This document shows, piece after piece, positions 34,310 through 47,684 of a stretch of 64,000 bases of DNA (position 1 is the first letter of the stretch; each line of letters begins with the position of its first letter). Position numbers and translations under genes: made by a program. This DNA is from Desulfurobacterium atlanticum. Its GTDB lineage: Bacteria > Aquificota > Aquificia > Desulfurobacteriales > Desulfurobacteriaceae. The stretch covers positions 62,001 through 126,000 of the forward strand of contig NZ_FZOB01000002.1 in assembly GCF_900188395.1 (NCBI RefSeq), written 5' to 3'. The notes beneath the pieces are model-generated. The model saw only the letters and a list, made by a program, of their open reading frames with translations. It did not search any database and was not told where the DNA came from.

Positions 34310-36802
34310 ATGAAAAAGAAAAGGGAACTTGAAATAGTCACAACAGCCGCTCTTTTGCACGATATTGGAAAATTTTTAAGAAGAGCAAAGCAGAAATCTG
34401 TAACTCATCAGGAAGCTTCTGAACTTGCAGTTTTAAACGATTTAAAACAAGGACTTAGCAGGTATTTCAACGAAGATGAGATAAAAGAGATAGCGGCTAT
34501 ATGTCGGAACCACCACTATGAAAGGGATAGAATAAAAGGAATAGATGAAAAAACAAAATCTGTTGCAACTGGAGACAGGTTAAGTGCCGGTCTTGACAGG
34601 CACTCTATGGATAAAATTGAATATGAAGAGAAATCAGCAACAGAAAAAAGCCTCTTAATTTCAATATTTGAAGAGATAAGCTTTAAAGAAAATAAAAAAA
34701 TACAAGCGATTTCCCAGCTTCTTGGCGGTGAAGTTAATGTGAAAGTATATAGATTCCAGAAGCTAACTCCAGATTCTGCATTTCCGGTAGAAAAACACAA
34801 GTACGTAACGGCTGAAACAGATTACAGCAACCTCTGGGATGAATTTGTAAAAGAGTTTAATAAGATTGAACCTACAGAAAACTTTAATCTTTTCTTTGAA
34901 GCGATGAAGTCAATCATAATCAAATATACGTGGTGTATCCCTTCAAGCACCTATTCTCCCAGGGGATTTACGCTCCCGGATGTGCCACTCTGCGACCATC
35001 TTTTATCTTCAGCCGCCATAGCAACAGCAACCCACAGACTAAAGCTTGAAAATGCTAAAAAAAGCAGCTTTTTGATACTTTCAGGAGATTTTTCAGGTAT
35101 TCAAAAATTTATCTTTTCAAGATACGGAGAGTCCAAAAAGGAAGCGGCAAAAATTTTAAGGGCAAAATCACTTGCTGTTTCTCTTGCTCTTGAAATTGTT
35201 ATAGACGAAATCGTTAAAACGTTTAATGTAAATAGGTCTGTTATTCTCCTCAATGCCGGCGGAAAGTTTAAAGCTATTCTTCCCGATATAAATGGAGAAG
35301 AAAAGATAAAAACCTTAAAAAGGAAAATGGAAGAGAAACTGATTAAAAACCATTACGGAATCCTCTCTATAAATCTTGCTTTTGTTAAAGCAGAAGAGAA
35401 AGACTTTGAAAAGGAAAACTTTAGAAAGAAACTTGAAGAGCTTTCACTAAAAGAGGCAGAAGAGAAGTTTAAAACCTTTGAAATAAAAGATACAGATAGA
35501 TTTGCAATTACAAACTATATAGATTCGCTTCATGGGGAACAGCCCTGTGAAATATGCGGTTTAAGACCAAGAGAGAACAGTAAAAATAGTTGTTCTTTAT
35601 GCAATCATCTATCAGATATAGGTAAAAATCTACCAAAATCAACATTTATGGTTATAAAACCTTCTGAAAAATTTTATCCCCTTCCTGAAATTGAACTTTA
35701 TGAAGCCAACGACAAAGAAGAGCTTTTAAATAGATATAGAGAGATAGAGCCTGATGAGGACGTGTTGATTTTTTCTATTGATGATACGGTTTGTTCTTCA
35801 ATTCCCGTGGCAAACATAAATGTTCACCTTCCTAAAAATAACGGAAAAATAGAAGATGTTGTAAAGATTTGTATGCAGGAGAAGGAAATAGAAAATACTT
35901 CCATAAAAACATTTGAACAGCTTGGATGTGAATCCCTTCAAGAAGAAAACGGAGAGATCTACGGTAAACCTTTCATAGCTGTTTTAAAGGCTGATGTTGA
36001 CAATCTTGGCTTTATCTTCTTGGATGGATTTTTAGAAGAGAGAAGCTCAAATGAGAACGGAGAAGAAAAAGTAAACAATCTCTACTCTGTCTCAAGGGTG
36101 ATGTATCTAAGTAGAATGATGAACTACTTTTTCACCGCTGTTCTTACAGAAAAGATAAAGAGGGATTTCCCTGATATTTATACAGTATTTGCCGGTGGGG
36201 ATGACCTTTTCCTGATAGGACCGTGGGAACAGATAATAAAGTTTACAAAGGAGATGCGGAAAGAGTTTAAAAGATATACCGCAGATAATCCCGATATAAC
36301 AATCTCATCAGGTATTTTTATAACGAAACCTTCAATTCCCGTTTACTCCCTTGCAGAAGGGGGAGAAGAGCAGCTTGAAATTGCAAAGAAAAAGAAAAAT
36401 AGAGTTGCTGTGTTTAACAAAAGCGTAACTTATGAGGATTTCTGTAAGCTTTTGGAAATATCAGAAAAACTTGAGAAAGAGATTAAGGAAGGGAAAGTGT
36501 CAACAGCACTTGCTTATAGATTGATAGAGCTTTCTGATATGGCGAACAAAATCTACAAAAACAGTAAAAATGCCCTCTGGAAAGCCTACTTAAGCTATGC
36601 AGTTTACAGAAATTACGGCAGAAACGGCAAAGTTAAAGATGAGGAAAGAGAGAGATTTTTGAAAGATTGGATTGAGCTTATTGAAAACTTTTCTCAAAAC
36701 ATAAGTAAAAAAGAGAAAGAAAATACCCTTTACATAGCGATAGCAAAAGCTTTATACAGGAGGAGAAGGTATGGGAAACTTTACTCAGCAAAGAAAAAAT
36801 GA
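34310..36802 (+). CDS. cas10: Type III-A Cas10 (Csm1)
   Basis: 830 aa large subunit of the Csm complex. N-terminal HD nuclease motif LLHDIGK (His17-Asp18). Zinc ribbon CEIC...CSLC (residues ~413-431). The second Palm domain has KADVDNLGFIF and the cyclase motif GGDD at 629-632. The first Palm-like part (LLNAGGKFKAILPD) lacks GGDD, as usual. With an intact GGDD it should make cyclic oligoadenylate when target RNA binds, feeding CalpL and Csx1, while HD would cut ssDNA. Helical D4-like C-terminus. Confidence 0.96.
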   Translation: MKKKRELEIVTTAALLHDIGKFLRRAKQKSVTHQEASELAVLNDLKQGLSRYFNEDEIKEIAAICRNHHYERDRIKGIDEKTKSVATGDRLSAGLDRHSMDKIEYEEKSATEKSLLISIFEEISFKENKKIQAISQLLGGEVNVKVYRFQKLTPDSAFPVEKHKYVTAETDYSNLWDEFVKEFNKIEPTENFNLFFEAMKSIIIKYTWCIPSSTYSPRGFTLPDVPLCDHLLSSAAIATATHRLKLENAKKSSFLILSGDFSGIQKFIFSRYGESKKEAAKILRAKSLAVSLALEIVIDEIVKTFNVNRSVILLNAGGKFKAILPDINGEEKIKTLKRKMEEKLIKNHYGILSINLAFVKAEEKDFEKENFRKKLEELSLKEAEEKFKTFEIKDTDRFAITNYIDSLHGEQPCEICGLRPRENSKNSCSLCNHLSDIGKNLPKSTFMVIKPSEKFYPLPEIELYEANDKEELLNRYREIEPDEDVLIFSIDDTVCSSIPVANINVHLPKNNGKIEDVVKICMQEKEIENTSIKTFEQLGCESLQEENGEIYGKPFIAVLKADVDNLGFIFLDGFLEERSSNENGEEKVNNLYSVSRVMYLSRMMNYFFTAVLTEKIKRDFPDIYTVFAGGDDLFLIGPWEQIIKFTKEMRKEFKRYTADNPDITISSGIFITKPSIPVYSLAEGGEEQLEIAKKKKNRVAVFNKSVTYEDFCKLLEISEKLEKEIKEGKVSTALAYRLIELSDMANKIYKNSKNALWKAYLSYAVYRNYGRNGKVKDEERERFLKDWIELIENFSQNISKKEKENTLYIAIAKALYRRRRYGKLYSAKKK

Positions 36803-37217
36803 CGAATTAGGTGAAATCAGACTTTTGGTTAAAGAGTTTGTGGAAGGAGACAATGAAAAAAAAGCAGATATTCTTTTGAATCAACTTGAAAGTAAATTTG
36901 TTAGAAAGTTAAAAGATGACAAAACATCTAAACACCAGATAAGAAAGCATTACCACAGGTTGCTTGAGATTAAAGAACAGATAGAGGCATCAGGAGCAAA
37001 AGATATAAAACCGTTTCTACCTGAGATAGCGATGACTTCAGCATATGCCACTTATGATAGAAACCGACAGGGAACTAAGATAGGACAACTTTTTGAGGCT
37101 TTTCTTAAATCACTGGTTAAAGAAGTTGTGGAGAGAAAAGATACACAAACCTTTTTAGACCTTATGAAACTTTTTGAAGCAGTGGTAGGACTTTCATCTA
37201 AATATTTAAGAAACTAA
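36771..37217 (+). CDS. csm2: Csm2, small subunit of the Csm complex
   Basis: 148 aa all-helical protein. ATG 36771 with perfect AGGAGG lies inside the end of cas10 (32-base overlap). The C-terminal block PFLPEIAMTSAYATYDRNRQG to SSKYLRN is typical of Csm2, which forms the inner helical filament of the complex. It is basic and RNA-facing in characterised complexes. Confidence 0.88.
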   Translation: MGNFTQQRKNDELGEIRLLVKEFVEGDNEKKADILLNQLESKFVRKLKDDKTSKHQIRKHYHRLLEIKEQIEASGAKDIKPFLPEIAMTSAYATYDRNRQGTKIGQLFEAFLKSLVKEVVERKDTQTFLDLMKLFEAVVGLSSKYLRN

Positions 37218-37229
37218 AGGAGGAAAGCT

Positions 37230-37940
37230 ATGGATAGACTTAAAAAGATTATAAAACTTGAAGGCACGATGAAAGTTATAACAGGACTTCACATAGGAGC
37301 TGGAAACGATGAAATAAAGATAGGAGGAATAGACACTCCTGTTGTAAGAGACCCTGTAACAAATGAGCCCTACATTCCCGGTTCATCAATAAAAGGGAAA
37401 ATGCGCTTTCTCCTTGAGTGGTATCTTGGAAAGGTTGACACAGAGAAAGGGGACGTTTTTAAAGATGTTAACGATAGTTCTGAAGAAGCAAAAGCTATAC
37501 TTAAAATCTTTGGTCTGTCAGGAGATAGTAAAGTTTCCATTGGACCAACCAGAGCATCGTTCTATGACATTTTTCTTACAGATGAGAGTAAAGCGCTTCT
37601 TAAAGAGAAGGTTGGAAGTTTAATGACAGAAGATAAAACAGAGGTAAGGATAAACAGGATAAAAGGGACAGGGGAGCATCCGCGACACACAGAAAGAATT
37701 CCTGCAGGAGCTGAGTTTGCTTTCAAGCTTGTTTACAAGGTGTTTGACGACGAAGATGAGAAACTGTTTACCTACATACTTAAAGGACTGAAGCTTATAG
37801 AGTTTGACGGGCTTGGGGGAAGCGTTTCAAGAGGATACGGTAAAGTGAAGTTTGAAAACCTTAAGAAAACCGTTTTTGAAAAAGGTAAAGAAGCAGATTC
37901 AAAGGATATAACAGAAGAATTTGAAACTATGGGGCTTTAA
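37230..37940 (+). CDS. csm3: Csm3 backbone RNase (Cas7 group)
   Basis: 236 aa RRM-fold protein that forms the crRNA-binding backbone and cuts target RNA every six bases. IGGIDTPVVRDPVTNEPYIPGSSIKGKMR holds the conserved Asp (Asp35) of the catalytic loop and the G-rich crRNA contact. The C-terminal FDGLGGSVSRGYGKV is the second RAMP glycine loop. GGAGG SD before ATG 37230. Confidence 0.95.
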   Translation: MDRLKKIIKLEGTMKVITGLHIGAGNDEIKIGGIDTPVVRDPVTNEPYIPGSSIKGKMRFLLEWYLGKVDTEKGDVFKDVNDSSEEAKAILKIFGLSGDSKVSIGPTRASFYDIFLTDESKALLKEKVGSLMTEDKTEVRINRIKGTGEHPRHTERIPAGAEFAFKLVYKVFDDEDEKLFTYILKGLKLIEFDGLGGSVSRGYGKVKFENLKKTVFEKGKEADSKDITEEFETMGL

Positions 37941-37941
37941 A

Positions 37942-38889
37942 ATGGAGAGAATCAGGATAAAAATAGAACCTGAAACTGCCTTTGCCTCGCCGATTCAAAG
38001 TGATACGCTGTTTGGTGAATTTTGCTGGCATTATAGATTTCTCTACGGAGATAGAAAACTTAATGAACTTCTTGATGGCTATAATAACAATCCTTCAATC
38101 GTTTTTTCCGACGGTTTTCCCGAAAACACTCTTCCAATGCCGACTTTAACCTTTAAAGAAAGTCCGTTTAAAGGAATAAAATTTAAGAAAGATAGAGTTG
38201 AGAGATACAAGCTGCTTAAAAAATTTAAGAAGAAAACGCTGATTGAGAAGTCACTTCTTGCTTCTCTTATAAAAGAGAAAACACTATCTGCAGACATTTT
38301 CTTGAAAATCGTGGAAGAAGAGAAGGAAGAGGAGAAAAAACCTGTCCATTTACATCAAAAGCAGATACACGTTGCCATAGATAGAGCTACCGGAAAAAGC
38401 CGTGAAGGGATACTTTTTGAGAAAAACTATACATTTTTCAGCACTCCGATAGAGATATACTGTAAATTTAATACGGAAAAAATATCCATTGAAGAGATAG
38501 AAGAGACTTTTAGATTTATGGGGATGAACGGCTTTGGAGCTGAAAAAACAACTGGAAAGGGAAAATTTATTCACAAGATTAAGGATTGGGATTTGCCAGA
38601 AATAGAAAAGCCGAACGGCTTCATCTCACTTTCAACGGGAATGCCAGAAGAAGTAGAAGTAAAAGAGCCTTATCATGTGAAATTTTTTACAAAGTTTCCA
38701 AAGCACGGCACGGAGATATTTCTTGAGAAGGATGCAAACATTTTTAAGAATCCTGTTATTATGACAGCGAGAGGTTCTGTATTTTCTTTGAAGGAGAAAA
38801 AGGAAGTTTACGGTAGAGTTTTTTATCTTTCAAAAGTTAAAACTCATATTCACTGTGGAAAAATAATCCCACTTTTTGTGAGGTTTTAA
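37942..38889 (+). CDS. csm4: Csm4 (Cas5 group)
   Basis: 315 aa from ATG 37942, next to the csm3 stop; a TTG at 37921 would only add an out-of-family extension. N-terminal RAMP strand ERIRIKIEPETAFASPIQSDTLFGEFCWHY binds the 5' crRNA handle. GFGAEKTTGKGKF is the glycine-rich loop. Contacts Cas10 at the base of the complex in known structures. Confidence 0.92.
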   Translation: MERIRIKIEPETAFASPIQSDTLFGEFCWHYRFLYGDRKLNELLDGYNNNPSIVFSDGFPENTLPMPTLTFKESPFKGIKFKKDRVERYKLLKKFKKKTLIEKSLLASLIKEKTLSADIFLKIVEEEKEEEKKPVHLHQKQIHVAIDRATGKSREGILFEKNYTFFSTPIEIYCKFNTEKISIEEIEETFRFMGMNGFGAEKTTGKGKFIHKIKDWDLPEIEKPNGFISLSTGMPEEVEVKEPYHVKFFTKFPKHGTEIFLEKDANIFKNPVIMTARGSVFSLKEKKEVYGRVFYLSKVKTHIHCGKIIPLFVRF

Positions 38890-38890
38890 A

Positions 38891-39997
38891 ATGGAAACTT
38901 ATAAAATCAGATTGAAAGTTGAAACACCAGCTCATATAGGAACGGGAGAGGAGCATTATGCTACCGATTTTGCGATAAAAGATGGAAAATTCTATCTGAT
39001 TGACCATAATAAATTCTTTAACCATCTTGAAAAGTTAGGAAAGGTTGATGAGTTTATTGAAATCGCAACATCAGACAATCCCTCATCAATACTTAAAATA
39101 AGGAAGCTGATAAAGGAAACCTTTAAACCAGAATTTGCAAAAGCTGAGATAGAAATAGATGAAACAGTTGCAAAAGAGATAGAAAAAAAATATACGGAAG
39201 TCTCAAAAGTGGAGGTATCAAGAAGAGAAGTTAATAAAGTAATAAACAGACTTTCCATCAAAAAAGTGTATAAATGTCCTTTAACTTTTAAACCAGTAGT
39301 TCCCGGTTCAAGCCTGAAAGGTGCAATAAGAACGGCAATAATAAGCTACATTCTGAAAAATAAAAAGGAAAATAATCCAGGATTAACAGCTTTTTTAACA
39401 AAGAATATCAAACTGCTTGATGACAAGACAATTTTAGATTTTAAAGTTGATGAAAATTTATCAAATCCAAAAACAGCAAGAGACCCTTTTAGATTTATAA
39501 AAGTTTCAGACTTTAACCCTATTGATACAGGTGTAAAAATAGGTAAAAGTCAGATGTATCACATAAAAAAAGGAAGCCTTAATCTTCCGGTTTATCTTGA
39601 GTATGTTAAAGAAGGTTCAACCTTTGAAGGAGAAATTAAAATAGATAGAGACATGGCGGAAAAGATATTTAAAGACACAGGTTTTCCATTTGAAATTCTT
39701 GAAATTGAAAATTTGCTAAAACAGATAAGAATACACTTTGGCAACTACGTTTATTACAAAAAAGAGAAAGAAAGAAATTTGAAATTTTCAAAGTGGAAGT
39801 TAAGAGCAAATAAACATAAAATGGAAGCGCCTTTAAAGATAGGATTTCACTCAGGAGCTTATGCAACAACAGTGGCTGATGACGAATTGAGGCAGGTTTA
39901 CGACAGGAAAAGAAAGACAACAAAACCGGATCCATTAACCTTCTGGATGATAAATCAAAAGCCGATGGGATGGTGCTATTTAGAGGTGATTGAATAA
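38891..39997 (+). CDS. csm5: Csm5
   Basis: 368 aa Cas7-like RAMP protein that caps the 3' end of the crRNA. ETYKIRLKVETPAHIGTGEEHYATDFAIKDGKFYLID is the usual opening, and PVVPGSSLKGAIRTAIISYIL is the conserved glycine loop. One base separates it from csm4, and the stop overlaps the cas6 ATG. Confidence 0.93.
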   Translation: METYKIRLKVETPAHIGTGEEHYATDFAIKDGKFYLIDHNKFFNHLEKLGKVDEFIEIATSDNPSSILKIRKLIKETFKPEFAKAEIEIDETVAKEIEKKYTEVSKVEVSRREVNKVINRLSIKKVYKCPLTFKPVVPGSSLKGAIRTAIISYILKNKKENNPGLTAFLTKNIKLLDDKTILDFKVDENLSNPKTARDPFRFIKVSDFNPIDTGVKIGKSQMYHIKKGSLNLPVYLEYVKEGSTFEGEIKIDRDMAEKIFKDTGFPFEILEIENLLKQIRIHFGNYVYYKKEKERNLKFSKWKLRANKHKMEAPLKIGFHSGAYATTVADDELRQVYDRKRKTTKPDPLTFWMINQKPMGWCYLEVIE

Positions 39998-40773
39998 TGC
40001 CGGGAAGAATAAGAATAGGATTTAAAGCAGAGGAAAAAATCCCTTTGAAAGAGATAACACCAGATAGAATACACGGTTTATTTTTTTCGTTGCTTGATAA
40101 AAAAACCGCAGAGTTGCTACATGAAATAAAAGGCTTTAAACCCTTTACCCTCTATTCGCCTCTTTTCTTTTCTGATAGTGAAGAAACGACCGATTTTATA
40201 CCTCTTGAGATTACATTTCTGGACGATGAGCTTTTCTCAAAAACCACAACAGCGGTAATTTTATACGGAAACAGAAAAGAGTTAAAGCTTGGAAATGTTG
40301 TTTTAAAAGTTTTAAGAGGTTTTAAGATAGAAGAAAACGATGTGATAAGCTTTGAAAAGCTTCTTGAAAATTCAGAACCAAACAGAGATTTGATAATGGA
40401 TTTTGTTTCGCCGACCACATTTAAGAGGGGAAAATTTGATTATCCTATCCCCGTTCCTGAATTGATTTTTAAAAGTTTGCTGAAAAAATGGAATGTTTTT
40501 TCATCTGTCAAATTGGACTACAAAGAGTTTCTTGAAAAAGTTGGCAGGGATGTTCATATTTCTGGATGCTGGATAAAAACATATAAATTTGAATTCTCCA
40601 GTCTCAAAAAGATAACAGGATTTAAAGGTAGAGTTTTCCTTTTTAACAGCAGTAAAGATGAAAATTTCAGAAAAACCGTTCAGGCACTTGTGAACTTTGC
40701 AACTTTCTCAGGTGTTGGAAGAAAAACAACGATGGGATTTGGAAGGATCAAGAATATAAAATTTAGAATTTAA
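39997..40773 (+). CDS. cas6: Cas6 crRNA endonuclease
   Basis: 258 aa double-RRM protein. The C-terminal glycine loop FSGVGRKTTMGFGRI is the Cas6 signature. Cuts within CRISPR repeats to leave an 8-nt 5' handle, here predicted as ATTACAAC for the large array. The start overlaps the csm5 stop (TAATG). Probable catalytic His residues are not obvious (His29 in DRIHGLFF is the best candidate). Confidence 0.9.
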   Translation: MPGRIRIGFKAEEKIPLKEITPDRIHGLFFSLLDKKTAELLHEIKGFKPFTLYSPLFFSDSEETTDFIPLEITFLDDELFSKTTTAVILYGNRKELKLGNVVLKVLRGFKIEENDVISFEKLLENSEPNRDLIMDFVSPTTFKRGKFDYPIPVPELIFKSLLKKWNVFSSVKLDYKEFLEKVGRDVHISGCWIKTYKFEFSSLKKITGFKGRVFLFNSSKDENFRKTVQALVNFATFSGVGRKTTMGFGRIKNIKFRI

Positions 40774-40825
40774 ATAGATATTGAAAGTATGGAATTGCTT
40801 TTCGGGAGCTTTTTGGGGGAATGGA

Positions 40826-41773
40826 TTGGGAATAGAAAATCTTAGAAACATATTTATTACAACTCATGGAGCGGTTATTAGAAAAAGAAAGTATGAGCTT
40901 ATAGTAGAAGTTAAAAACAGGAAATATTCAATTCCATTTGGAACTTTCTCTAATGTCTTTATAGTAGCAAATGTAAATTTAACAACTCCGGTTATAAAAT
41001 CTTTATCTGGAAGTGGAAAATATATATTTATTGTTAGAACAAATGGAGAGCTTTCTTCTATAATACTTCCTCAATTTCTTAGATCCTCATCAAAAAGAAG
41101 AATTAACCAATATAAGAGTTTTGAAATTGAGTATAAAAAGGTAGCAATGATACAGGAACTTTTGCGCAGGAAAGCTCTTTTAGCTCAATGGATTCTTGAG
41201 AAATTTTACGACTATTCTGGAAGACACTATTTGGAAAAAAGTGTTATAAAGTCATTTTATAAAGATACTGCTAAATGGATAGAAAAGTCGGATAAAATCT
41301 CTTTACTAAGAAGTATAGATGGATTTATAATGAATTCTCTTTATAGACACTTCTCAGCAGCTATATCTGGAAAGTGGAAATTTGAGAAGAGAACCTATAA
41401 TCCGCCGGAAAATGAGGTAAACAGTCTTTTAAGTTTGGTATATACTTATACCTATTCTATATTGATACCTTTAATAGTATCTTTTGACCTTGATCCCTAT
41501 TGTGGTTTTTTTCATGAAAAGAGAGGAAAACATGCAGCTCTTGCTTCAGATATTCTGGAGATTTTAAGACCTGGTCTTATATTTTTTGTAGCAGATATGC
41601 TAAATAGTGAATTTCTAACAAAAAGCGATTTCCGAAAGACAAAAAGAAGTGTACTTATTAAACCTGAAGCCTTAAAAGTCATATCAAAACTATATTCTGA
41701 AAAAATTTTGAATTCAGACTTCTTTTTTCCAGTTTCCCTATTTATTCACGAAGTAGTATTAAAATATTTGTAA
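40826..41773 (+). CDS. cas1: Cas1 integrase, Glu-to-Asp at one metal site
   Basis: 315 aa from TTG 40826, which has GGGGGA five bases upstream and starts just before the normal Cas1 N-terminal strand (LRNIFITTHGAVIRK). TTG 40781 would add 15 unlikely residues. The metal His and Asp are present (GFFHEKRGKHAALASDILEILRP: His230, Asp242). The first metal ligand, normally Glu in an EG.a...Y context, is Asp165 (RSIDGFIMNSLYRHF). Asp can still bind metal, so activity is not ruled out. Confidence 0.93.
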   Translation: MGIENLRNIFITTHGAVIRKRKYELIVEVKNRKYSIPFGTFSNVFIVANVNLTTPVIKSLSGSGKYIFIVRTNGELSSIILPQFLRSSSKRRINQYKSFEIEYKKVAMIQELLRRKALLAQWILEKFYDYSGRHYLEKSVIKSFYKDTAKWIEKSDKISLLRSIDGFIMNSLYRHFSAAISGKWKFEKRTYNPPENEVNSLLSLVYTYTYSILIPLIVSFDLDPYCGFFHEKRGKHAALASDILEILRPGLIFFVADMLNSEFLTKSDFRKTKRSVLIKPEALKVISKLYSEKILNSDFFFPVSLFIHEVVLKYL

Positions 41774-41783
41774 GGTTACTGAT

Positions 41784-42047
41784 ATGAGATACCTTATAGT
41801 TTATGACATATCAAACGATAGAGCTCGTAATAAAATTTCCACAAAATTGAAAAAGTATGGGAAGAGAATTCAATATAGTGCTTTTGAGATAGAAATAGCT
41901 TCAAAAGAAATAGAAAGATTAATTAATGAGATGGAGAAACTTATAGATAATACTACCGATTCTATATTCCTTTTTCCACTTTCTTCTTATTTAATTCAAT
42001 GTATTATAAAGCTTGGAAAAGTTGATGAAAATGAGGTAGCTCTATGA
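41784..42047 (+). CDS. cas2: Cas2, first copy
   Basis: 87 aa ferredoxin-fold protein. MRYLIVYDISNDRARNKISTKLKKYGKRIQYSAFEIEI is canonical, with the conserved Asp in YDIS. Bridges Cas1 dimers during spacer capture. It ends in an ATGA overlap with a second, different cas2. Confidence 0.93.
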   Translation: MRYLIVYDISNDRARNKISTKLKKYGKRIQYSAFEIEIASKEIERLINEMEKLIDNTTDSIFLFPLSSYLIQCIIKLGKVDENEVAL

Positions 42048-42364
42048 AATTTAAATTTTCGAAAAGAATTAATAACTATGTAGTAATATATGATATACTT
42101 TCTGATAAGCGTAGAGGTTGGATTTCGGCGGCAAATAGAAGAAGGACAAAAGTTTCAAGAATATTGATGGAATATGGGGTTAGAACACAAAAAAGTGTAT
42201 TTGAAATTGAGATTAATACTCAGAAAGATTTTAATAGGCTGATCAGAAGTTTGCAAAAGATAATGACGAAAGACGACAAAATATACATTTACCCTATTGA
42301 TTCAAAAAGTTTAAAAAGAGTTAGAAAACTTGGAAGTATGATAGAATATGACTTTTTCTTTTGA
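42044..42364 (+). CDS. cas2: Cas2, second divergent copy
   Basis: 106 aa. YVVIYDILSDKRR and EYGVRTQKSVFEIEI show the Cas2 fold, but a basic insert (GWISAANRRRTK) interrupts the first helix and the C-terminus is longer than in the first copy. Overlaps the first cas2 by 4 bases. The two proteins are only distantly similar, which argues against a recent duplication and suggests a heteromeric or dual-function Cas2. Confidence 0.88.
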   Translation: MKFKFSKRINNYVVIYDILSDKRRGWISAANRRRTKVSRILMEYGVRTQKSVFEIEINTQKDFNRLIRSLQKIMTKDDKIYIYPIDSKSLKRVRKLGSMIEYDFFF

Positions 42365-42484: not shown

Positions 42485-44274
42485 GTTGAAATGCCCTATA
42501 AACTGAGAGGGATTACAACTTGTAGTAATACATACCTACTACTCTCCTTCAGCTTACACACTAGTTGAAATGCCCTATAAACTGAGAGGGATTACAACTC
42601 CTATTTCTTCTAGTAACATTTTAACAACTGGTTGAAATGCCCTATAAACTGAGAGGGATTACAACTCATGACAACTTCTTCCATTCTCAACCTCCTTGAT
42701 GTTGAAATGCCCTATAAACTGAGAGGGATTACAACCCCTCTTCAAGTTTTTGAGGAAATTGAATCATAACGAATTTCGTTGAAATGCCCTATAAACTGAG
42801 AGGGATTACAACAATTGTTACATCATCAATAGTTTCAGAATCATCATAAGTTGAAATGCCCTATAAACTGAGAGGGATTACAACTTTAGCCTAGAAATCC
42901 TATAGATGAGGAATTATCACCAGTAGCATGTTGAAATGCCCTATAAACTGAGAGGGATTACAACTTCTTTCCGCAATTCTTTTATAATCCTCTTTTTCCC
43001 AGTTGAAATGCCCTATAAACTGAGAGGGATTACAACTCAGCTTGGTTGCTGAAACGATCCTTTTTCCGAAATGTTCTTCGTTGAAATGCCCTATAAACTG
43101 AGAGGGATTACAACTTTATTTTGAAATAATCTTCAAATGTGTCATAACAATTTGTTGAAATGCCCTATAAACTGAGAGGGATTACAACTATAAGATATGC
43201 AGTATCCGTATTTGGCCGGATTGTGAACTTAGAGTTGAAATGCCCTATAAACTGAGAGGGATTACAACTTAATTTTTGCTGATTAATATTAACGTGTTTA
43301 TTATCGGATTTTTCGTTGAAATGCCCTATAAACTGAGAGGGATTACAACCGGGCTTTCATCCCCTCCCGCAAAAAATAAAAAAGGGGAGGACCGTTGAAA
43401 TGCCCTATAAACTGAGAGGGATTACAACACAACTTCCATTTCAACCTCCTTGATTTTATTTTCACGTTGAAATGCCCTATAAACTGAGAGGGATTACAAC
43501 TTTCAAGTCATTGATATATTCTTTCGTCATTTCAATCGAATTAGTTGAAATGCCCTATAAACTGAGAGGGATTACAACTTCTTTATCATGTTAACCTCCT
43601 ATAATCATATGTAATTAAAGAAGAGTTGAAATGCCCTATAAACTGAGAGGGATTACAACATGTTTACAATGAAGATGATTCACAAGATGGTGAAGAAAGT
43701 GTAGGTTGAAATGCCCTATAAACTGAGAGGGATTACAACATTCTTCGTCTATTAAAACAAATCTGTATCGTACACCTTCGGTTGAAATGCCCTATAAACT
43801 GAGAGGGATTACAACCTGTTTGTAGACAATATATTTATTAATGATTTTATATCTGTTAAGTTGAAATGCCCTATAAACTGAGAGGGATTACAACTCTAAA
43901 TCAATTATTTGCCACGGTCCCCCTATTTTTTTTGGTTGAAATGCCCTATAAACTGAGAGGGATTACAACCTAATAATTATGTACTTATCTGTTTCCTTGA
44001 TCTTTGTTGAAATGCCCTATAAACTGAGAGGGATTACAACCAGAAAAATATGTATAATCTCTGCAAGTATAAAAACACCGCAAGTTGAAATGCCCTATAA
44101 ACTGAGAGGGATTACAACCAGAAAAATATGTATAATCTCTGCAAGTATAAAAACACCGCAAGTTGAAATGCCCTATAAACTGAGAGGGATTACAACCAGA
44201 AAAATATGTATAATCTCTGCAAGTATAAAAACACCGCAAGTTGAAATGCCCTATAAACTGAGAGGGATTACGAT
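42485..44274 (+). CRISPR. CRISPR array 1: 24 repeats, 23 spacers
   Basis: 35-bp repeat beginning GTTGAAATGCCCTAT and ending GGGATTACAAC, first copy 42485-42519 and last 44240-44274. Spacers are 32-46 bp. The repeat has inner CCCT/AGGG and outer GTTG/CAAC complementarity. The last copy has lost its AAC end (reads GAT), marking the leader-distal end. The three final spacers (44041-44083, 44119-44161, 44197-44239) are identical, so 21 spacers are unique. The repeat end GGGATTACAAC resembles GGGATTGAAAC repeats of type III/I-B loci, consistent with transcription on this strand. Confidence 0.98.
44041..44239 (+). repeat. Triplicated terminal spacer unit
   Basis: A 43-bp spacer occurs three times in succession separated by perfect repeats, a 78-bp tandem unit. 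All copies are identical. It sits at the oldest end of array 1. Confidence 0.97.
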
Positions 44275-44424: not shown

Positions 44425-45777
44425 CTAAGATTTCTGAATGAAATCTTCTATAATTTTTATAGTCTGCGTATCATTTTTGTATCTTATGCTTCTTGTAATA
44501 GGGTTATACTCCAATAGATTAGTTAAAAGTCCTGAGTGAGCTATAAAATTCCTATGGCTGGGGTTTTTGCTTGTTTTAAATTTCTCGTTTTCATACTCTT
44601 GTGCATTTTTCCACATTTTTTCTATTATAGGATTGTCTTTTCCGAAATTAAAACTGATACTGGAATTTGATGATTTATGATTAGAGGTTAATTTCTTTAG
44701 TCTATCTATATCTTTAGCTAGCAAGATTTCGTTTGGAGAGTCTTTTCCAAATATTTCCCTATAAATAGAGGAAAATTTCTCATAAAGATCGTCTATAACT
44801 TCTCCTTGTTTGCCATTTTCAGGAATTCCATTTTTTTCAAGTAGGGCAGAAATTCCTCCATAGAATGAAAAAAGTAGAAAAGTGTTAGATATTAATCTGT
44901 AGTTGATTCCTTCTTTTGTAAATAGATAGTTTATTATCTTGTTTTTTTCATTTTTTTCGAATTTTGGAGGGCTTTCACTACTTCCCATTATAGGAGAAAG
45001 TTCTGAGATGAGATTTTTCATTATTTTTTTAATTTTTTTTTCAGGATAATATCCCAAGTGATATATAACCAAAGGAAAATTTTTAATTGTTGAAGTAAGA
45101 ATGTATAAGGCACTTTTTGTGATTTTTTTTAGTTCATTTTTCATTTCACTGCTTACAGGTAGTTTATCTATGTTGCTCTCCACATCTCTTATTTCTTTCC
45201 ATTTTATAGGTAGTGATAGGAACGCTTTAGGTTTAAAAGTTTCTTTATAAATATTAAATCTTACTTTATCAGAGTTACTGCCAATTACTGGTTCCGAATA
45301 TACTATGTAAAATTTAGGTTTTTTCCTCTTTCCTAAATTTAAAAATTCAACAAATATTCTGAAGAATTTAAATGCTTCCAGCATAGCAAATGTTAATTGA
45401 TTCATTCCGACAGAAACATCTGCAAAGAATTTTAGATTTTCTGTTTCTTCTGAAAGAAATTTTTTCGTGAAGTTGTGAAAGTAGAAGAATACAAGCTGGT
45501 AAAACCTTATATTATATTCATAATCATATTTTCCAAAACTTGGAGAAATTACGAAGTCAAATTCTATTTCGGAATTATTGGAAAGTTCTTTAATATCATT
45601 TAAAATACCTGATTCTAAAAGACTGTGAGGGATAAAGATTAAAGGTTTAACGTTTTCTTCTCTGCTAACAACCAAAGTGGAAAGTTTGGAAGGTTTTGAG
45701 TTTTTCCCTTCGTAAGAAAAGTTAACTTCTCTCCACCCTTTTACATTACCAAGAGTCGCACATATAAAACCTTGCAT
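44425..45777 (-). CDS. csx1: Csx1: CARF-HEPN CRISPR ribonuclease
   Basis: 450 aa. N-terminal CARF domain opens FICATLGNVKGWREVNFSYEGK, typical Csx1, with FFADVSVGMNQLTFAMLEAF at the ligand-binding second motif. The C-terminal HEPN domain has the catalytic R-x4-H motif RNFIAH (Arg409, His414). It should be switched on by the cyclic oligoadenylate made by Cas10 and degrade RNA. ATG 45777 follows AAGGAG and lies 32 bases inside the small basic gene, forming one minus-strand operon with three small genes. Confidence 0.9.
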   Translation of the reverse strand: MQGFICATLGNVKGWREVNFSYEGKNSKPSKLSTLVVSREENVKPLIFIPHSLLESGILNDIKELSNNSEIEFDFVISPSFGKYDYEYNIRFYQLVFFYFHNFTKKFLSEETENLKFFADVSVGMNQLTFAMLEAFKFFRIFVEFLNLGKRKKPKFYIVYSEPVIGSNSDKVRFNIYKETFKPKAFLSLPIKWKEIRDVESNIDKLPVSSEMKNELKKITKSALYILTSTIKNFPLVIYHLGYYPEKKIKKIMKNLISELSPIMGSSESPPKFEKNEKNKIINYLFTKEGINYRLISNTFLLFSFYGGISALLEKNGIPENGKQGEVIDDLYEKFSSIYREIFGKDSPNEILLAKDIDRLKKLTSNHKSSNSSISFNFGKDNPIIEKMWKNAQEYENEKFKTSKNPSHRNFIAHSGLLTNLLEYNPITRSIRYKNDTQTIKIIEDFIQKS

Positions 45778-45916
45778 TTCCCTTTCTCCTTGTTCTTTTC
45801 CAATAAAACTTTTTATTTTCCTTTATCCATCTTTTTCTGTTATGATGCTTACTTAATTCATGGTTATACTCAGCATGCATAACTATTTTAACATTTTTTA
45901 GCTTTCTTTCTCTCAT
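45746..45916 (-). CDS. 56-aa strongly basic protein overlapping csx1
   Basis: ATG 45916 has a perfect AAGGAG eight bases upstream. The product is extremely basic (Arg/Lys/His rich, e.g. HELSKHHNRKRWIKENKKFYWKRTRRKG) with a few aromatic residues. It overlaps the preceding 75-aa gene by 29 bases and csx1 by 32. Overlapping frames make codon evidence weak, but the SD and the exact chain of overlaps are good signs. Could bind nucleic acid. No family known. Confidence 0.5.
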   Translation of the reverse strand: MRERKLKNVKIVMHAEYNHELSKHHNRKRWIKENKKFYWKRTRRKGNARFYMCDSW

Positions 45917-46115
45917 TGCGAAATCTCCTTTTTAGTTTTTCGCTAAAGCTTGCTGAATTTTTTCCGGAAACATATCCTATAATAGTAAATATTACAAATG
46001 GAGAAATGCATGCCATTAAAGTAAACAAAATTAAAACCTTTATTAAAATTGGAATTAATATTTTTGCTAAAAGCCAGAGAGCAACTATTCCTACAACTGC
46101 CAGTAGTAAAGGCAT
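45888..46115 (-). CDS. Small membrane protein A, upstream of csx1
   Basis: 75 aa. Two transmembrane helices (residues ~3-27 and ~29-50) and a basic tail (KLKRRFRNERKKAKKC) that should stay inside. ATG 46115 follows AAAGGAGG. It is a paralogue of the next upstream protein: both share AKILIP / SKILIP and ISPFVIF / ISPFIIF at the same spacing. Location between two CRISPR arrays, in front of csx1. Confidence 0.65.
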   Translation of the reverse strand: MPLLLAVVGIVALWLLAKILIPILIKVLILFTLMACISPFVIFTIIGYVSGKNSASFSEKLKRRFRNERKKAKKC

Positions 46116-46174: not shown

Positions 46175-46360
46175 CTAATTTTCCCTGTTTAAGGTATTTA
46201 TAATTTCCCATATAGCAGCACCAAGTACCATAAATATGATAAATGGACTAATTGCGCTTAAAAGGGCAAATAATTTAAGGATAGCTGTGAAAAAAGGTAT
46301 TAAAATTTTGGATGCAAAATAAAGGAAAACAAATATGAGTATTAAAACAAGCACAGCCAC
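46175..46360 (-). CDS. Small membrane protein B, paralogue of A
   Basis: 61 aa from GTG 46360, which has AGGAGG five bases upstream; longer starts in this frame lack an SD. Two helices with FASKILIPFF and SAISPFIIFMVLG aligning with the neighbouring protein. It is the first gene of the four-gene operon ending in csx1. Such paired helices might form a membrane target or anchor for the effector, but this is only inference. Confidence 0.6.
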   Translation of the reverse strand: MAVLVLILIFVFLYFASKILIPFFTAILKLFALLSAISPFIIFMVLGAAIWEIINTLNREN

Positions 46361-46799
46361 CTTTTCCTCCTGATATATTTTTTTACTCCTAATACTTGCT
46401 CTGAATTTAACAACCAAAAACTATAATCTTTACTGTACTTTGTGCGTTTACATCACTTCCTTTGTCTTCACTTAATAATTAACGATTTTTGAATAAAATT
46501 CTGACATTAATTATGCTTTTTTCTGTTTTTAATTACCGTGCCATGTAGAAATTTCTATTGTGTATGAAAGTACAAAACGGAAGATTAAATGGAAGTAATG
46601 ATTTTATTAGCAAAGGAGATTTTATAGAAATAATGGAAAAGTGTTAAGTTATAATAGTTTTCCCCATTTGTTATTTTTGCTTTTATATGCAAGTGTAGAT
46701 GATCTAAAAGAGTAGTAAACGGTTTTTTTGGACCAAAAAGAAAATTTAAGAAATGTTCTCTATGAGATATCCCAAATAGCTTACACAAGATTTTTTACA

Positions 46800-47117: not shown

Positions 47118-47684
47118 GTCGTAATCCCTCACGTTTTTCAGGGCATTTCAACCTTCCCTGAAATTACTGATGAGTGGTGGGAGGAGTAGCCTCTGTCGTA
47201 ATCCCTCACGTTTTTTAGGGCATTTCAACTCGTAGAATTGAATGCAAAATCAATAAAGATGAAACAATTAAAGGTCGTAATCCCTCACGTTTTTTAGGGC
47301 ATTTCAACTAACACAACAGATATAATAGATATAGATGATCTAATAGCGCCGATGTCGTAATCCCTCACGTTTTTTAGGGCATTTCAACAGAAAATTCCCT
47401 TCAAAAATAAAGGAATTGCTCTCCCCCAAGTCGTAATCCCTCACGTTTTTTAGGGCATTTCAACACCTTACAGTCGGGGCTTGTAAATGGCCCCGTTTGT
47501 AAGTCGTAATCCCTCACGTTTTTTAGGGCATTTCAACTATAGTGAATAAAATAAAATAGGAGGTTGGTATGTTGTCGTAATCCCTCACGTTTTTTAGGGC
47601 ATTTCAACTAATAGTTTGAGAATTATCAATTAATGAAAGTATGTATATCGTCGTAATCCCTCACGTTTTTTAGGGCATTTCAAC
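47118..47684 (-). CRISPR. CRISPR array 2: 8 repeats, 7 spacers
   Basis: 35-bp repeat, written on the plus strand starting GTCGTAATCCCTCACG and ending GGGCATTTCAAC. Its complement begins GTTGAAATGCCCTA and ends GGGATTACGAC, i.e. the array 1 repeat with a changed middle (AAAAACGT for TAAACTGA) and one end base. Copies start at 47118, 47195, 47274, 47354, 47430, 47503, 47574 and 47650. The 47118 copy has a T-to-C change and is the likely leader-distal end, so transcription is on the minus strand. No cas genes lie next to it; it probably uses the upstream Csm/Cas6 machinery. Confidence 0.97.

Follow-up and report, generated by a model that had tools for sequence, protein, structure and literature searches.

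A type III-A CRISPR locus of Desulfurobacterium atlanticum encodes two different Cas2 proteins, Cas2a and Cas2b, in tandem downstream of cas1. They represent two position-specific Cas2 lineages, both under selection and both predating the divergence of the module copies, and the pair is inherited jointly with a clade of Cas1 proteins that has an altered metal site. From these observations we consider it probable that Cas2a and Cas2b form a dedicated heterodimer, which would lie at the core of an asymmetric Cas1–Cas2 integrase in the type III-A adaptation module. The window (the whole stretch of 64,000 nucleotides that was analysed) contains the following features.

34310..39997, + strand: csm1 (cas10), csm2, csm3, csm4 and csm5, all five above the NCBIfam cut-offs
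39997..40773, + strand: cas6 (TIGR01877, 58.5 bits, slightly below the cut-off of 58.65)
40781..41773, + strand: cas1, 330 aa, Cas1 domain alone with no reverse transcriptase (RT) or Cas6 domain, metal site Asp-His-Asp
41784..42047, + strand: cas2a, canonical Cas2, 87 aa, above the Pfam and NCBIfam cut-offs
42044..42364, + strand: cas2b, second Cas2, 106 aa, identified by the Pfam and NCBIfam cut-offs, a structural model and Foldseek
42485..44274, + strand: CRISPR array, 24 repeats of 35 nt, starting 120 bases past cas2b
44425..45777, − strand: Csx1/MJ1666-like CARF protein on the far side of the array (76.7 bits, short of the 110-bit cut-off)

The csm1–csm5, cas6, cas1, cas2a and cas2b genes and the array share one strand of the window, and the system is of type III-A, with Csm1 to Csm5 all found. 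Within it, cas1, cas2a and cas2b would constitute one adaptation module. The only degenerate repeat of the main array is at its far end, away from cas2b, and we therefore assign the leader to the cas2b side. Close to the far end (44006–44271), identical repeat–spacer units follow each other consecutively (3.4 copies of 78 bases, with 100% matches). A second array (47118–47684) has eight repeats resembling those of the main array, on the opposite strand, and two small ORFs adjoin the Csx1-like gene (45888–46115 and 46175–46417, − strand; 75 and 80 aa); both have hydrophobic stretches and they look similar by eye.

Both cas2 genes are complete ORFs on the same strand, and the earlier note on this DNA was correct in describing an 87-residue Cas2 that overlaps a 106-residue Cas2 by four bases (ATGA). 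The two proteins are both members of the Cas2 family: Cas2a and Cas2b score 73.9 and 65.3 bits, respectively, against PF09827 (cut-off 23.8) and 55.8 and 51.2 bits against TIGR01573 (cut-off 24.5), with 40% identity to each other across 86 aligned residues. The sequence of Cas2a matches solved Cas2 structures, and the predicted fold of Cas2b is ferredoxin-like (model pLDDT 83.6), the top Foldseek matches of the model being solved Cas2 chains. The idea that the second copy is a mis-called member of another family is ruled out by the PF09827 and TIGR01573 cut-offs and by Foldseek; it is a genuine Cas2. Its 19 extra residues consist of a nine-residue N-terminal extension and about ten residues located mostly in the β1–α1 loop. 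In the model a strand (residues 10–17) is followed by a loop (18–28) and a helix (29–42), with a mean pLDDT of 73 at residues 21–30; what had been called a basic insert in the first helix is thus, according to this model, mostly a longer loop before helix 1 together with the N-terminal extension. The features specific to Cas2b are this extension, with a KRIxxY motif, the long basic β1–α1 loop and a C-terminal DxFF-like tail. The Asp of the YD motif at the end of β-strand 1 is invariant in both tandem alignments (that of the first genes covers 12 tandem first genes) and in both halves of the Cas2 fusions described below, and 15 columns are invariant in 11 Cas2b proteins that are 37–65% identical to the window copy.

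The D. atlanticum genome encodes seven Cas2 domains, arranged as three tandem pairs and one single gene, and four Cas1s. The survey of tandem cas2 that had been proposed for Aquificota, carried out here for the 22 genomes of our Desulfurobacteriaceae set (G000–G021), revealed 12 tandem pairs and five fusions. With nine single genes, these make up the 26 cas2 sites of the family, which are spread over 13 genomes; the two-Cas2 module is present in 11 of the 22 genomes, and a Cas2b-like protein is found in none of the nine single-Cas2 modules. The four-base overlap of cas2a and cas2b is seen in nine of the 12 tandem pairs. The window pair is not there by chance, because the genome has three such pairs and the family nine more, with this recurrent overlap. 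In one tandem pair cas2b is truncated to 75 aa (G017, locus L023/L042); the same genome also carries a fused module.

Several other genes accompany these loci. The second type III locus of D. atlanticum has, between cas6 and cas1, genes for two large GTPases of 539 and 647 aa (L009:5526-9085), the first of which has dynamin-like domains above the Pfam cut-offs. Near cas1, a Card1-like nuclease is encoded at L018 and L008 (L018:6553-8804 and L008:12794-13924), and Csx3 together with a weakly CARF-like protein below the Pfam cut-offs at L018 and L020 (L020:10568-11675). The mean spacer length beside the tandem modules of D. atlanticum is 41.3 nt (SD 3.8) in the window, 40.6 nt (SD 2.8) at L008 and 40.2 nt (SD 3.2) at L009; beside the single-Cas2 module of the same genome (L010) it is 34.9–36.9 nt (SD 1.0), varying with the repeat length taken. 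These lengths are no evidence for a different ruler, since type III arrays are loose in general and the short array beside the fused module L026 (five repeats) has a mean spacer of 35.2 nt (SD 1.3).

In a Cas2 tree of 61 rows, the second tandem genes, the first fusion halves and the second fusion halves each form one group (support 89/98, 99/96 and 98/96, respectively), two changes are needed for the first tandem genes and for the upstream genes of modules in which two cas2 genes flank cas1, and three for the downstream genes of such modules. The seven position labels require seven changes on this tree, compared with 40.2 when shuffled. The Cas2 trees are weak (94–95 columns, with poorly supported deep branches), and the group of second tandem genes, though kept in a quick 147-row tree, has an SH-aLRT support of 18% there. 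The AU tests reject a recent tandem duplication that would make the two window genes sisters (p-AU 3e-6), as had been supposed for two Cas2s so unlike each other. Duplications in two nearer ancestors are rejected as well, at p-AU 0.009 for the ancestor that the window module shares with its closest copy and at p = 0.008 for the other, the groups for these tests having been named after inspection of the tree. A duplication within the family ancestor is compatible with the data (p-AU 0.45). A joint clade of the tandem and fused Cas2b proteins is neither shown nor rejected (p-AU 0.46), and that of the tandem and fused Cas2a proteins has a support of 65/56. Both cas2a and cas2b are under purifying selection, with dN/dS values between G001 and G002 of 0.12 and 0.15, respectively; the value for the fusion (G017/G019) is 0.08. 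Moreover, the pairwise distances over nine tandem loci are correlated for Cas1 and Cas2a (0.70), Cas1 and Cas2b (0.93) and Cas2a and Cas2b (0.84), each with a Mantel p of 2e-4, which is the floor of 5000 shuffles.

Full-length fusions of Cas2a and Cas2b in a single ORF are found in five of 136 Aquificota genomes, all Desulfurobacteriaceae and all in the order Cas2a then Cas2b; three of the five fusion loci come from records titled Thermovibrio or Desulfurobacteriaceae, in keeping with Aquificota. The proteins are 204–212 aa long and have 48 invariant columns in common, and in two of the five the second half starts with the KRIxxY lead-in of Cas2b. When the window Cas2b was compared with the Cas2 ORFs of 80 fetched loci, the three fusions present there matched it best; the sole further tandem Cas2b in those loci is the truncated copy. 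To assign single genes to one half or the other, we built HMMs from the first and second fusion halves and compared their scores. By this measure, 11 of the 12 tandem first genes are closer to half one and 11 of the 12 second genes to half two, the exception being G018 (L024), where both genes fit the opposite half. Only the half-two assignments are informative, because 62 of 64 single Cas2s of other taxa also fit the first half; within the phylum, three of five single Cas2s are closer to half two, at low scores (means of 30.4 and 29.6 bits). An AlphaFold prediction of the fusion on a three-sequence alignment gave a model too poor to use (pLDDT 45.6, pTM 0.32). Viral contigs scanned with the fusion alignment contained no relative, and a plasmid search with the fusion returned 51 records, with one place covering at least 80% of the fusion and a single cas2 named under the match.

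The earlier note would have been contradicted by a second copy that is a fused or mis-called different family, or is frameshifted in relatives. The second copy belongs to no other family; in five relatives it is fused to Cas2a, which favours joint action of the two proteins, and it is truncated in the one tandem pair mentioned above. These natural fusions, always in the same order, lend weight to the Cas2 heterodimer that the earlier note had named as a possibility, the dimer itself being an inference; as a whole, the interpretation given in that note is partly supported. A fusion provides proximity and an equal dose of its halves, and homodimers could still form in trans.

The Cas1 partner is also distinctive. 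In a quick Cas1 tree the Cas1s of ten tandem and five fused modules form one clade (99% SH-aLRT), and an eleventh tandem row, a degenerate protein from L024, falls outside it on a very long branch. All 15 Cas1s of this clade, the window copy included, have an Asp-His-Asp metal site, with Asp replacing the catalytic Glu. The Glu is retained in the Cas1 of all nine single-Cas2 modules of the family, as well as in all 67 Cas1 rows of other taxa, which come from 77 loci (rows spanning more than 230 residues were counted, and the four Asp rows in this set are Desulfurobacteriaceae). The altered site and the possession of two Cas2s are found together in just one clade, and must therefore be counted as one event and not as independent support for each other. 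Degenerate Cas1-like proteins that lack the metal triad precede the tandem cas2 pairs at L022:7860-8678 and L024:8545-9366; the two genomes each also hold, elsewhere, an Asp-His-Asp Cas1 with a fused Cas2.

Sister families have cas1 lying between two cas2 genes in 11 loci (L037 being a variant layout), and the flanking layout was found in 12 of 20 further loci; of the remaining eight, three are cut by contig ends and the others are L121, L133, L134, L136 and L137. The flanking Cas1s have Glu in all six examined from the 11 loci and in all 14 further rows that cover the three positions (two of these in modules cut by contig ends), and a fifteenth row (L140) shows the Glu before its sequence ends. 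A tree that unites Cas2b with the downstream cas2 of the flanking cas2–cas1–cas2 modules in a single clade is rejected (p-AU 0.005), although 17 of 24 downstream genes are closer to the second fusion half; the flanking pairs may therefore share the origin of the tandem pairs or have one of their own. At L037:8900-11278 and L121:3278-5659, a Cas1 that keeps the triad is accompanied by two cas2 genes and a degenerate Cas1-like ORF, in other orders; L134 has two cas2 genes after cas1, with 784 bases between them, and L137 has two nearly adjacent cas2 genes, with no cas1 within the fetched stretch. Seven flanking loci of one sister family also encode, upstream of the first cas2, a diverged Cas1 paralogue of 284–299 aa that we call Cas1x:

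L131:3575-4474, Cas1x
L029:10217-11116, Cas1x (L029 and L131 are 99% identical)
L122:2343-3200, Cas1x
L036:10243-11100, Cas1x
L127:1835-2707, Cas1x
L129:1160-2026, Cas1x
L128:6355-7209, Cas1x

An hhalign comparison of Cas1x with Cas1 gave a probability of 83.6% (E 8e-6, 235 columns), with the catalytic His aligned with Asn, and a Pfam scan of one Cas1x (L131) gave no match. The Cas1x profile has no match in the other flanking loci of the same sister family (L035, L124 and L125); among the ORFs of the fetched loci it otherwise matches, up to E = 1, Cas1s and one Cas1-like fragment (best E 4e-4).

In Cas1–Cas2 integrases, the prespacer duplex is carried by a Cas2 dimer that has a Cas1 dimer on either side. 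The fusions and the co-inheritance support Cas2a and Cas2b acting together, and in the mechanism that we favour they would form an obligate heterodimer that takes the place of the usual Cas2 homodimer as the bridge between the Cas1 dimers. The heterohexamer would then be asymmetric, one Cas1 lobe docking on Cas2a and the other on Cas2b, and the basic loop of Cas2b would be placed beside the conserved Asp, where the prespacer DNA passes. Such an asymmetry may let the complex distinguish its two ends during capture or integration, and might thereby serve spacer polarity or prespacer choice. Several points count against the heterodimer: the fused halves could homodimerise in trans, the altered metal site adds no independent support and the flanking two-Cas2 modules of the sister families keep Glu, the Cas2 trees are weak, a duplication within the family ancestor is compatible with the data, some single Cas2s of the phylum also fit half two, both genes of L024 fit the opposite half, two tandem modules follow a degenerate Cas1 and one tandem cas2b is truncated. 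The two proteins may instead form separate homodimers, with Cas2a working with Cas1 in adaptation and Cas2b having a second job, as a nuclease, as a regulator of the module or as an alternative bridge for other prespacers. Cas2 proteins alone can show nuclease activities, and the basic loop, N-terminal extension and DxFF tail of Cas2b, all absent from Cas2a, would suit a separate role. We nevertheless judge two homodimers to be unlikely, given the five 1:1 fusions in the same order, the absence of a Cas2b-like protein from the single-Cas2 modules of the family and the correlation with Cas1 distances, which is at least as strong for Cas2b as for Cas2a. It is more improbable still that the second cas2 is a redundant or decaying duplicate, an unneeded leftover of module exchange. 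Many CRISPR modules are gained and lost, one tandem cas2b is truncated and two tandem pairs follow a degenerate Cas1-like gene, yet both genes are under purifying selection, invariant columns persist among the divergent Cas2b proteins and half of the family genomes have the module.

The type III-D RT–Cas1 module of Vibrio vulnificus YJ016 reportedly has a Cas2A and a Cas2B, both needed for spacer acquisition. This is an experimental precedent for two Cas2s acting jointly, and one may wonder whether the window pair belongs to a system of this kind, taking spacers from RNA. Tandem cas2 pairs do occur at RT–Cas1 loci: two adjacent cas2 genes are present in 11 of the 77 fetched loci of other taxa, including RT–Cas1 loci of Vibrio, Methylococcaceae and Nitrospirae, and RT and Cas1 domains (Pfam) are found in all eight of these 11 that were scanned, whereas L060 and L110 are RT–Cas1 loci with one cas2. 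The 77 loci were retrieved with patterns taken from the fusion alignment; they give no estimate of frequency. Such a system is nonetheless very improbable here, since the window Cas1 has no RT domain, the second Cas2 of the RT-linked pairs groups apart from Cas2b (0 of 11 fit half two), and the six RT-linked Cas1s labelled in the Cas1 tree fall outside the Desulfurobacteriaceae clade, the Cas1 rows of other taxa all having Glu. Three further Vibrio loci (L050, L067 and L077, YJ016 itself not being among them) have tandem pairs that fall outside the Cas2b lineage in the half-HMM test, and no Cas2–Cas2 fusion was seen among the 11 RT-linked pairs. A shared origin of the Aquificota and RT-linked pairs is likewise unsupported: they form separate groups in a tree with weak deep branches (94 columns), and none of the 11 fits half two. 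At L049:5967-8270, a single ORF of 767 aa with RT, Cas1 and Cas2 domains is followed by a second cas2; this is one metagenome contig and may be a sequence error.

Known Cas1–Cas2 integrases have a twofold symmetric core, yet spacers are inserted with polarity. If the core in Desulfurobacteriaceae consists of two different Cas2s, in some cases joined in one natural chain, the role of symmetry would become testable, as each half could be changed separately. The Glu-to-Asp replacement in Cas1 offers natural variation at a position that is otherwise Glu in all of the other-taxa rows, the Cas1 paralogue of the sister family could help to separate catalytic from structural Cas1 positions, and a thermophilic vent host family may ease purification and structural work. 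More tentatively, and with clearly less confidence than in the heterodimer, we can imagine that Aquificota integrases have dedicated symmetry-breaking subunits: the Cas2a–Cas2b heterodimer, tandem or fused, with an Asp-His-Asp Cas1 in one case and, in the four-gene module of a sister family, Cas1x as the fixed noncatalytic partner of each Cas1 dimer. The chemically different ends might then fix the leader-side end of the prespacer without Cas4 or a PAM.

The canonical integrase, with four Cas1s and two identical Cas2s (Synechocystis 7cr6/7cr8, Escherichia coli and Enterococcus faecalis), has the same families, the same cas1–cas2 order beside the array and the same conserved Cas2 Asp as the window locus, and 7cr6 is the best PDB sequence match of Cas2b (E 2.8e-6). 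The window differs from it in having two different Cas2s per cas1 instead of one, and an Asp-His-Asp Cas1 metal site instead of Glu-His-Asp. Cas1 is ordinarily paired with a single kind of Cas2, as the earlier note stated, and this holds in general, with an exception in V. vulnificus. The latter module, as reported, resembles the window in that a type III cas1 is accompanied by two unlike cas2 genes; its Cas1 is fused to a reverse transcriptase, whereas that of the window has the Cas1 domain only. The Cas6–RT–Cas1/Cas2 complex of Thiomicrospira (7kft/7kfu, the former being among the Foldseek matches of the Cas2b model) is described as a type III integrase with two Cas2 chains at its core; unlike the window, it has a single Cas2 gene, and its Cas1 carries RT and Cas6 domains (PMC8102632). 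Cas2/3 of Pseudomonas aeruginosa is also a fusion, but Cas2 is joined there to another Cas protein and here to a second Cas2 (PMC12259127). Methylacidiphilum strain V4, whose cas1 is truncated, is mentioned as having two Cas2 proteins (PMC6688271). Among the matches listed in our literature searches, and in a few passages, tandem or fused Cas2 of Aquificota is not described, and two earlier RT–CRISPR papers make no mention of a second Cas2 in their passages on Cas2. Two different Cas2s, both of them required, are already reported for the RT–Cas1 module of V. vulnificus; new here are an RT-free two-Cas2 module, its fusions, its Asp-His-Asp Cas1 and the four-gene version of a sister family, in which a Cas1 paralogue lacks the catalytic His.
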